A stretch of DNA of 32,983 nucleotides. Source: an uncultured Thomasclavelia sp. (GTDB lineage Bacteria > Bacillota_I > Bacilli_A > Erysipelotrichales > Coprobacillaceae). The translations under genes and the position numbers were made by a program. The stretch spans positions 1 through 32,983 of the forward strand of contig NZ_CALUXO010000019.1 in the NCBI RefSeq assembly GCF_944324745.1. Reading direction: 5' to 3'. Below are positions 18,241 through 20,829 of this stretch, one piece after another (positions within the stretch are counted from its first letter, which is position 1; each line of letters begins with the position of its first letter). The notes under the pieces were generated by a model. It made no database searches. It was given only the letters and a program-made list of their open reading frames with translations, and was not told where the DNA came from.

Positions 18241-18269
18241 AGTATAATACTTTTTATTATTATAATCAA
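18241..18269 (-). promoter_or_regulatory. satD promoter
   Basis: Minus-strand TTGATT (18264-18269), 17 bases, TATACT (18241-18246). The -35 box lies inside the palindrome at 18265-18302. Confidence 0.55.
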
Positions 18270-18302
18270 TAATTATAAGTTATATAACTTATAATTATTG
18301 AT
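18265..18302. repeat. Perfect 38-bp palindrome upstream of satD
   Basis: Two 19-base arms (18265-18283 and 18284-18302) with no spacer and no mismatch; the centre is AGTTATATAACT. It overlaps the satD -35 and is the best operator candidate for the HTH of SatD. It could also extrude as a cruciform. Confidence 0.85.
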
Positions 18303-18315
18303 CATTATTAAAAAA

Positions 18316-18338
18316 ACTAATAATCAATAATTATTAGT
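18316..18338. repeat. Second palindrome upstream of satD
   Basis: ACTAATAAT-CAATA-ATTATTAGT, 9-bp arms. It shares AATCAATAATTAT with the left arm of the 38-bp palindrome (direct repeat, 18264 and 18322), suggesting a second binding site. Confidence 0.6.
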
Positions 18339-18446
18339 CTAAAAATAAGTATTGTCTTAATATACTATTATTTTATCGCTCTTGATTTTATTTTATACTT
18401 ACTAAAATAATAACATTATAATTAGAATAATTTACAATTACATTTG

Positions 18447-18599
18447 CTACTCTCTCTTTTTTTTACGAGAATTATACCTTTTTAGTTGTGTTGCATTTTT
18501 TGCAACTGAACTAATTTCATCTAATTCTCCTTCTTTAAAAATACTAGATATATGTCTAGAAATAGTTGATTTATTTTTATCAAATAATTCACGATTATT
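18447..18599 (-). pseudogene. RhuM-family remnant 2
   Basis: A 50-codon minus-strand open stretch without a start codon. The segment RELFDKNKSTISRHISSIFK, then EGELDE, is the conserved N-terminal DNA-binding-like part of RhuM (virulence/Fic-neighbour) proteins and aligns with the remnant at 19905-20311. It ends at a TAG after a Lys/Arg-rich run. The rest of the roughly 330-residue family protein is absent. It lies 15 bases from the rpsI-terminator repeat at 18615-18666. Confidence 0.7.
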
Positions 18600-18614
18600 T
18601 CATTGAAAAGTACA

Positions 18615-18666
18615 AAAAAAGATCCAAGATAAACTTGAATCTTCTTTGTATTTGTTTGAAATTATC
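18615..18666. repeat. Copy B of the rpsI stop/terminator repeat (candidate att site)
   Basis: 51 of 52 bases are identical to 20390-20441, in the same orientation, 1775 bases away. The single difference is in the terminator loop, so the hairpin still works as a minus-strand terminator. Adjacent codons (18667-18681, minus strand) spell E-F-S-K-R-stop, like the rpsI end Q-F-S-K-R-stop, but the F, S, K and R codons all differ synonymously. Confidence 0.85.
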
Positions 18667-18812
18667 GTTTTGAAAACTCTGCAACTTTATAAAATAAGAA
18701 TTTTAAATCCTTTTTGTCGATTACTTGTTGTATTGCTAAAACATCTTATAACTATTTAACATGAGTATTCAAATAAATTAAAATGAGAGGCGCGCAAGTC
18801 CTCTCACAACGT
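18617..18812 (-). ncRNA. Candidate structured RNA downstream of the AbiF-like gene
   Basis: Starts about 7 bases after a good promoter that lies around the abi stop codon and could run to the terminator in copy B (about 195 nt). The strongest structure is TGAGAGG/CCTCTCA (18784-18806) closing a loop ACTTGCGCG. Such G+C-rich sequence is exceptional in this AT-rich region. No protein-coding reading frame with a start fits. AbiF genes are known to be associated with a conserved structured RNA, reported to act as an RNA antitoxin. Whether this is that RNA needs a covariance-model search. The 3' limit is a guess; the RNA could end soon after the hairpin (TTTTAATTTATTT). Confidence 0.5.
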
Positions 18813-18818
18813 ACATAT

Positions 18819-18847
18819 ATAATACCTTAATTTTTTCTATATGTAAA
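18819..18847 (-). promoter_or_regulatory. Promoter of the candidate RNA
   Basis: Minus-strand TTTACA (18842-18847), exactly 17 bases, TATTAT (18819-18824). It begins just after the abi stop codon. TACATATA and TATATGTA also form an inverted repeat over the same bases. Confidence 0.55.
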
Positions 18848-18850
18848 GTA

Positions 18851-19789
18851 TTATTTGATTTTTCTATTGTGAATTATAGAAAAATCAAATTTTGTATTGT
18901 ATTCTATATTAGTTTCTTCAATAATTTCATCTATTTTTTGTCTTAAAGGTAATGTTAAATTTTCATTAAGCAAAAAATTTGACCAATGACAAATTGAAAT
19001 ATATCCTAAAAAGACGATTGAATATAACTTTCCTTTAACAATATAGGGAGATTGTTTTCCTAAAATATTGGAATGATGAGATATTTTATTACGTAGCATA
19101 TGGATAGCTTTTAAGTCAACTCTACTGGGGTCCATTACTTCTTTAGGTTTTTTATATGATTTCCCTTTCATAAATTCATTAAGCTTTACAGTAGTTAAGC
19201 AATCGATTAACTTTATTAAAGTACCAAAACTAATAAAATTAATTGCTACCCAAATAGGAATAATACCATTATATGCATTGATATAATGTTTGATTGCTGG
19301 TTCTTCTCTTGTTTTAATAATATCATTATAAAGAGTTTTACTCAAAATACGATTATATGTATTTTCAGCAATGAATTTTTCTATTGAATTATTAACAAGA
19401 CAATAATTATCTTTTAACAAAGATATTTTATGAATATCATCAAGTTTAAAAGTTACCATATCATATTGGCCGCATAGATTTGCTAATTTTGTTCTTAGAG
19501 ATTCTTCTATTTTTCTTGTTTCTTGAAAAAGCATTATAGAAATTCTTTTATCAAGCTCACATAAAGCTATCAGTTCTGTACACTTATGATTATGATAGTC
19601 GTCTTCTTCAACATTATAATTATCCAGTAAAAATCTATATCCAGTAATATGATAATAAGTATTTACATTTTTTATATAATTATATAGTAACTGATAATCA
19701 TCAATTAACAAATGTCTTTTTTGTAATTTATCTATCCTATCTTCTATCGTTCGTGATTTTTTTAATTCTAAAGTACCATTTTCTGACAT
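18851..19789 (-). CDS. Abi_2 (AbiD/AbiF-like) HEPN abortive-infection protein
   Basis: 312-residue protein of the Abi_2 family, implicated in abortive phage resistance. The N-terminus (IDKLQKRHLLIDDYQLLYNY, then TGYRF) and the helical middle (RKIEESLRTKLA; PIWVAINFISFGTLIKL) are typical. Near the C-terminus HMLRNKISHHSNIL contains the HEPN ribonuclease motif R-x4-H (Arg233, His238). The likely activity is RNA cleavage that halts growth on infection. The frame opens at a GTG within GGGAGTG; I start at the ATG at 19789, eight bases after GGAG. A TATAAT lies at 19845-19850. The gene lies between two copies of the rpsI terminator and is followed by a candidate structured RNA, as expected for the AbiF branch. 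Confidence 0.85.
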   Translation of the reverse strand: MSENGTLELKKSRTIEDRIDKLQKRHLLIDDYQLLYNYIKNVNTYYHITGYRFLLDNYNVEEDDYHNHKCTELIALCELDKRISIMLFQETRKIEESLRTKLANLCGQYDMVTFKLDDIHKISLLKDNYCLVNNSIEKFIAENTYNRILSKTLYNDIIKTREEPAIKHYINAYNGIIPIWVAINFISFGTLIKLIDCLTTVKLNEFMKGKSYKKPKEVMDPSRVDLKAIHMLRNKISHHSNILGKQSPYIVKGKLYSIVFLGYISICHWSNFLLNENLTLPLRQKIDEIIEETNIEYNTKFDFSIIHNRKIK

Positions 19790-19904
19790 AATATTCACTC
19801 CCTTTTCAAGGAATTATTTCATTTACTAATACAGTATTCTACATATTATAACAAAAATGCAAGATAATCTTGAATTTATAAATAACATATTACTCAATCA
19901 GAGT

Positions 19905-20311
19905 TTATAGTTTATAATGAAAAAAAGCATTTAAACTTCTCACAAAGTCTAAATACTTCTCTAATCTTTTCAATATATTATTAGCCCATTTTCTAAAAAG
20001 AATACCTTTAGCTGAATTCGTTCTATATCCAACAGCTAAAATAACATCTAAATTATAATACTTTACATTATATTCTTGAACACCAAGTTTACCCATATGT
20101 GCAAAATTTGCACACATGCTATTTTCATCAAGTTCACCTGATTTAAAAATATTTTTAATATACCTCGTAACAACAGTTCTATCAATTCTAAACAAACTAG
20201 CTATTTGCTTTTGATTTAATCAAACTGTTTATCAGGAGAAAGATTAACGCCTAATACAAAATCTCCATCCTTAAATTGAACTATTTCATTTCTTTCTACT
20301 GTATCATTCAT
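19905..20311 (-). pseudogene. RhuM-family remnant 1, frameshifted and truncated
   Basis: A proper start exists (AAGGTG then ATG at 20311) and codes MNDTVERNEIVQFKDGD and about 30 residues, then hits TAA near 20220. The homologous sequence continues in another frame from LNQKQIASLF through RYIKNIFKSGELDEN and YYNLDVILAVGYRTNS to FRKWANNILKR. It then ends abruptly at 19905 after a non-family tail. The intact family protein is about 330 residues, so only the N-terminal third remains. RhuM proteins are often found near mobile elements and Fic or restriction genes; their function is unclear. Confidence 0.8.
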
Positions 20312-20389
20312 AATATCACCTTCTTCATTTAAAATTTTACTAATTACTTTATTATATAACTACCTCACTCTTATCTCATTAAAAAACAC

Positions 20390-20441
20390 AAAAAAGATCC
20401 AAGATAATCTTGAATCTTCTTTGTATTTGTTTGAAATTATC
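20390..20441. repeat. Copy A of the rpsI stop/terminator repeat (candidate att site)
   Basis: Covers the rpsI stop codon and its terminator. 51 of 52 bases are identical to 18615-18666. Minus-strand stem AAGATTCAAG / CTTGGATCTT followed by TTTTTT. It acts as terminator of rplM-rpsI and is the rpsI-proximal boundary of the inserted cargo. Confidence 0.85.
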
Positions 20442-20829
20442 TCTTAGAGAATTGTGGCGCACGTCTTGCTTTTTTAAGACCATATTTTTTACGTTCTTTA
20501 ACACGTGCATCACGAGTAAGGAATCCAGCAGCTTTTAGAGTTGGTCTGTAATCAGAACCAGCTTCCAATAATGCTCTTGAAATACCATGACGGATAGCTC
20601 CAGCTTGTCCTGAATATCCTCCACCATAAACATTTACTTTAACATCAAATTGATTAGTAGTGTTTGTTAATTCTAAAGGTTGATTAACAATCATTAATAA
20701 TGTTTCTGATGGTAAATAATCTTTAGCTGGTTTATCATTAATTGTAATATTTCCTGTACCAGGTGTTAAAATAACTCTTGCTACAGAAGTTTTTCTACGT
20801 CCAGTTCCGCGATATTGTACATTTGCCAT
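20437..20829 (-). CDS. rpsI: 30S ribosomal protein uS9
   Basis: 130 residues, full length. The N-terminus [19 protein letters not shown] and the universally conserved tail [17 protein letters not shown], which reaches the P-site tRNA, are present. It is preceded by GGGAGG and separated from rplM by 18 bases, forming the standard rplM-rpsI operon. Its stop codon lies within the 52-bp direct repeat, so insertion of downstream DNA has left the protein intact. Confidence 0.98.

Follow-up and report, generated by a model that had tools for sequence, protein, structure and literature searches.

Does an abi gene whose stop codon is followed at once by a promoter and a hairpin form, together with that hairpin, an AbiF-type toxin and its RNA antitoxin, and is the RNA the one already known to accompany abiF genes? 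The question is raised by a locus in the window, i.e., the whole 32,983-nt stretch of DNA analysed here, for which the original prediction had proposed an AbiF-like HEPN protein with an adjacent promoter-driven structured RNA. The abi gene (18851–19789) lies on the minus strand, running from an ATG at 19789, with a Shine–Dalgarno element AAGGGAG 5′ of it, to a TAA at 18853–18851; it codes for 312 aa, and its reading frame is open from a GTG at 19798. The protein is a full-length member of the Abi_2 family, matching the Pfam profile (PF07751) with an E-value of 1.9e-28 and 100.5 bits (gathering score 25.6) over positions 2–182 of 184, and PADLOC labels it AbiD (3.7e-32). In the PDB it has one significant match, 8VZ6 (the PbAbiF dimer with its ncRNA), recovered both by sequence (E 7e-9, residues 17–250) and by fold (E 7.9e-6, probability 1.00, using an AlphaFold2 model with a mean pLDDT of 68). 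These matches uphold the proposed identity of the protein.

The R-polar-xxx-H motif of the HEPN domain is present as R236-N-K-I-S-H241. R236, N237 and H241 are invariant across the aligned Abi_2 proteins, and the arginine and histidine correspond to R210 and H215 of PbAbiF in 8VZ6, of which the double mutant is reported to be inactive (PMC12373285). Identity to PbAbiF in the fold alignment is 18%, and the comparison with the PbAbiF–AbiFr complex covers the protein. The motif, together with the precedent of AbiFCd, suggests that the window protein is a toxic ribonuclease. The Abi_2 family is also common to this protein and the lactococcal AbiD, AbiD1 and AbiF, for which, unlike the window locus, no downstream RNA is described in the literature surveyed.

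The predicted elements that follow the gene, namely promoter, hairpin and terminator, are all present on the minus strand. The sigma-70-type promoter TTTACA-N17-TATTAT (18819–18847) begins 3 nt past the abi stop, with the −35 hexamer TTTACA at 18847–18842, a 17-nt spacer and the −10 hexamer TATTAT at 18824–18819. The transcript is predicted to start 7 nt beyond the −10 element, at 18812, giving a 33-nt RNA, ACGTTGTGAGAGGACTTGCGCGCCTCTCATTTT (18812–18780), which consists of a 5′ tail ACGUU, an 8-bp stem, a 9-nt loop and the start of a U-run, and which scores 57.7 bits with a covariance model. Its hairpin (18783–18807) pairs columns 6–13 with 23–30 as TGAGAGG/CCTCTCA, the eight pairs including one G–U, around the loop ACTTGCGCG. 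This hairpin likely doubles as the RNA's own terminator: the T-run after it is weak in the window (TTTTAATTT) and longer in several relatives. The window transcript may therefore end at the hairpin (about 35 nt) or at an intrinsic terminator, copy B, at 18615–18647 (about 195 nt); a further copy, A, stands at 20427–20385, after rpsI. Taken singly, the promoter does not reach significance (2.1 kb of sequence contain 19 promoter-like sites, shuffled versions 16.9) and the hairpin folds modestly better than shuffles (z −2.3), so what lifts the RNA above chance is its conservation across diverged copies. A reading of the RNA as a small ORF (ATG TAC GTT GTG AGA...) was discarded: relatives do not have the ATG, and in one copy (L038) the frame contains a TAA.

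Close Abi_2 homologues occur in six other genomes of the family, and the DNA past their stop codons can be aligned with that of the window. An intact abi gene together with the RNA is present in Massilimicrobiota timonensis An13, where the transcript is predicted to start at the A of ACGUUGUG. Over these seven diverged copies, identity within the 33-nt RNA is 87%, whereas it drops to 40% immediately before it and to 52% in the promoter spacer, and from +44 on it is 31%; the −35 and −10 hexamers are kept while the spacer between them drifts, and the loop and 5′ tail of the RNA are almost invariant. Two stem pairs show compensatory changes, with columns 9–27 occupied by AU, UA or GC and columns 10–26 by GC or AU. 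Overall, 97.9% of stem cells pair, compared to 35–71% when the partner strand is slid, in a data set where five of the eight stem pairs never vary and where the shuffle control for covariation counts sequences rather than events. Aligning the regions downstream of the relatives' Abi_2 genes thus bears out the proposal of a structured RNA next to abi.

We then followed the distribution of the RNA with a covariance model built from the abi-linked copies. Across 311 genomes of the order, it recovered ten true copies in nine genomes: all seven that carry this Abi_2 clade and two of the rest. The association of RNA and clade is strong (Fisher p 1e-12, about 295 genomes), with a significance that is inflated by the shared ancestry of the abi-linked loci. 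At every abi locus with an intact 3′ end, the RNA promoter abuts the stop codon. A second model, extended by the copy from genome G105, returned no copies from samples of the phylum and class beyond the genomes already known; searches of viral contigs, phages and plasmids found none, and no close relative of the Abi_2 clade was found in the viral contigs. Weak model matches were set aside as chance (G035, G273 and G407) or as lying within coding sequence or plain terminators (L076, L077 and L086, the last judged by eye), and 17 of the 23 GC-rich exact-pattern matches in genome contigs, having neither stem nor promoter, are likewise due to chance.

At three loci the RNA is intact beside a broken abi gene, and at a fourth it occurs with no abi at all. 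In G080, a 631-nt deletion has removed abi from about codon 103 to the last codons while leaving the promoter and RNA untouched; in G005 the 5′ half of abi is missing and the 3′ part remains; and in G063 abi is frameshifted and has a stop just ahead of the HEPN motif, with the RNA and promoter again intact in both of these. The orphan in G029 has the consensus sequence, complete with promoter, and follows rpsI and a TauE-like gene (named by eye). Retention of the RNA without the gene is how an antitoxin outliving a decayed toxin could be expected to look, and recent decay would look alike in the near-identical cases.

Two copies are found behind Fic genes, and it is chiefly these that cast doubt on the RNA serving AbiF alone. 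G003 has a second copy (L062, 3852–3884) with its own promoter, 125 nt downstream of a Fic gene and about 2.4 kb from its Abi_2-linked copy. In G105, which belongs to another family, the copy (L075, 1501–1533) lies about 370 nt behind a Fic gene and features both a promoter and compensatory stem changes. The two Fic genes are homologous (58% identity), and three other Fic homologues that were checked (about 58–78% identity) do not have the RNA. Hence, Abi_2 genes may not be the sole partners of the RNA. Beside the Abi_2 gene of G003 (L062, 7461–11721) there is also a defence island with an AbiH-family gene, an AAA ATPase and then a gene that looks HNH-like but has no Pfam match.

The prediction had further identified the RNA with the conserved abiF ncRNA, and this part of it fails. 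The Rfam abiF model (RF03085) has no match in the window or in the whole source genome up to an E-value of 10, although in positive controls on plasmids of Metabacillus and Exiguobacterium it found its targets immediately 5′ of Abi_2 genes (consensus CCCGCCAAGCCUCUCAACGAUGCUCAAAUCGGCGGGU). The RF03085 instances found in other species differ in sequence and precede their Abi_2 gene, whereas the window RNA is downstream of abi; upstream of abi, the window's clade has no RNA conserved between genera. Low-scoring Rfam matches to miRNA and snRNA families are due to chance. As for the concern that the protein might belong to an Abi_2 branch devoid of RNA partners, it falls outside the RF03085 branch of the protein tree; its own branch is one with downstream RNAs.

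One point of comparison is the C. difficile prophage system, in which AbiFCd is toxic via its HEPN residues and the RCd22 ncRNA silences it in trans by direct binding (PMC12373285); PbAbiF is described in like manner in a review (PMC12737573). With RCd22–AbiFCd and RF03085 the window locus shares an Abi_2 HEPN protein with the RN-xxx-H motif beside a short structured RNA with its own promoter and terminator, but the sequence and fold of the RNA differ. RCd22 is upstream of the toxin gene and co-transcribed with it, the AbiFCd mRNA arising through read-through of the RCd22 terminator (PMC12373285), and contains two abiF motifs; the window RNA is a single hairpin that follows the gene, the promoter being located at the stop codon. 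The window RNA type may be among the covariance models of Zilberzwige-Tal et al. 2025 (AbiF5_iter3.CM and diverse_rna_xinsi.CM, named in PMC12804078).

We also surveyed Abi_2 genes for adjacent short RNAs with a detector that requires a promoter and then, within 90 nt, a GC-containing hairpin with a T-run. Such a promoter-driven, self-terminated RNA was scored at 20 of 25 Abi_2 loci compared to 11 of 147 other ORFs in similar DNA (p 5e-14), the detector having been loosened after the Abi_2 loci were viewed, since earlier versions were too strict, and then applied identically to the background ORFs. Four loci were assigned by eye: L014, which falls just below the threshold, and, among those with an upstream RNA, L024, L082 and L083. 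Most modules lie upstream of the Abi_2 start and are of several sequence types: an RF03085-like CCCACCACGCCTCT...GGTGGG, GGTCAGGAAGCGTACG.CGCCCTGGCC, and CTCGGG-bulge-CCCG..GGG-CTCGGG. The survey suggests that Abi_2 genes as a rule have a short RNA linked to them, far more widely than RF03085 would indicate. Short promoter-driven hairpin RNAs stand directly upstream of the Abi_2 genes at L010, L011, L017, L019, L022, L023, L027 and L116; at least two of the upstream types (GGTCAGGAAGCGTACG..CCTGGCC and the CTCGGG-bulge type) are missed by RF03085, and the RNA of L116 is RF03085-like. A 'downstream' call by the detector at L027 stemmed from a misplaced gene, the RNA being upstream of the real Abi_2 start.

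A downstream RNA with a promoter touching the stop codon is found in the window's clade and in two sister genes, L021 and L014, which come from one genus; these two have a different RNA at the same place, and in L014 the −35 element overlaps the stop codon. In the protein tree, the six rows with downstream RNAs form one branch (96/96 support), requiring one change in 96% of bootstrap trees, with L014 on a long branch and L012 labelled as upstream despite an ambiguous placement. L012 lacks an upstream module, and a possible promoter lies about 69 nt beyond its stop codon, so RNAs may have come to lie downstream on more than one occasion.

As to the setting, the rpsI 3′ end with its terminator occurs on either side of the cassette (RhuM remnant, abi and RNA) as a 67-nt direct repeat of 90% identity, of which one copy (20390–20456) forms the near boundary and the duplicate (18615–18681) the far boundary; the same layout recurs at L003 and L066. 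One broken RhuM-like fragment on the minus strand follows each rpsI-end copy, at 19905–20320 (by Pfam) and at about 18450–18600 (from the translation), suggesting tandem island insertions, or duplication followed by decay. The cassette resembles what is left of a small island with rpsI as its integration site, its repeats being like attL and attR; an integrase was not seen among the ORFs listed near it. Elsewhere in the window, a very AT-rich long inverted repeat (18260–18340, ataattattgatcaataattataagttatataacttataattattgat) lies upstream of a SatD-family gene.

We consider that the locus is probably, though far from certainly, an AbiF-type toxin–antitoxin pair of type III-like character, in which the RNA, transcribed independently, would be the antitoxin, a role assigned to it by analogy. 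The homology to PbAbiF, the constraint on the RNA, its linkage to the clade, its persistence without an intact abi, the outcome of the survey and the AbiFCd experiments argue for such a pair; weighing against it are the failure of RF03085 to match, the location on the other side of the gene, the Fic-linked and orphan copies, the shared ancestry of the loci and the decay of abi being perhaps recent. The main competing explanation, which we hold to be unlikely, is that the RNA is a small regulator in its own right, carried along with defence genes such as Abi_2 and Fic, which does not bind AbiF and acts on other RNAs or on a shared cellular or phage target. It would account for the copies in G003, G105 and G029, and the near-invariance of the loop and tail would suit an element used for pairing or recognition; yet the RNA occurs in every genome of the Abi_2 clade, its promoter abuts the stop at abi loci while the Fic copies are 125–370 nt off and three Fic homologues have none, and sister Abi_2 genes carry a different RNA at the very same place.

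Two further readings remain. That the hairpin is a mere terminator for abi transcription, with the promoter a chance match in AT-rich DNA, agrees with the background frequency of promoter-like sites and with the T-runs in several relatives, but a terminator needs neither the hexamers nor the 5′ tail and loop that are conserved far above their surroundings, the Fic-linked and orphan copies included; we deem it highly improbable. The least probable is that the element acts as DNA, being a palindrome or recombination site that belongs to the island (e.g., an integration end) next to an accidental promoter-like sequence: the cassette does sit between duplicated rpsI ends and the orphan is likewise near rpsI, but the repeats bounding the island lie elsewhere, the G003 and G105 copies are not beside rpsI, and a palindrome leaves unexplained why the hexamers and the distance between them are kept while the spacer sequence drifts.

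For the toxin–antitoxin pair, we envisage that AbiF would act as a dimeric HEPN ribonuclease whose cutting of RNA stops growth, for example during phage infection. The promoter abutting the abi stop would yield a separate RNA of about 35 nt, with the conserved tail, the hairpin and the U-run, that would bind the AbiF dimer and keep it silent, as RCd22 does AbiFCd. Transcribed alone from downstream, this RNA would not be tied to toxin expression by read-through as RCd22 is and so should act in trans, and the separate promoter would allow the levels of toxin and RNA to be set independently. Loss of the short RNA upon infection would then free the toxin.

The proposed logic, an RNA that binds and silences a ribonuclease, is that of the type III systems ToxIN, CptIN and TenpIN. 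Systems of the ToxIN type have a ToxN-like toxin fold and an upstream RNA in the form of a tandem array cut by the toxin. In contrast, the window toxin has the HEPN fold and its RNA is a single downstream unit; as in those systems, a linked RNA gene with its own promoter and terminator, the latter weak in the window, is conserved with the toxin. A further possibility, which we put forward tentatively and with more doubt than conviction, is that a branch of AbiF swapped the upstream co-transcribed abiF RNA for an unrelated mini-RNA, transcribed independently from a promoter at the toxin gene's stop codon, with a portable RNA class serving, or being passed between, unrelated effectors such as Fic.

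In the family presumed to be ancestral to Cas13, the locus would represent a second type of RNA and a second order of genes; the relatedness to Cas13 pertains to AbiF in general rather than to this locus. With one hairpin of about 33 nt, it would be a very small RNA antitoxin, convenient for structural work and for defining what the silencing of AbiF requires. If AbiF proteins accept unrelated hairpins, then the identity of the partner RNA would be evolutionarily loose, which may bear on how a guide RNA came to be adopted.
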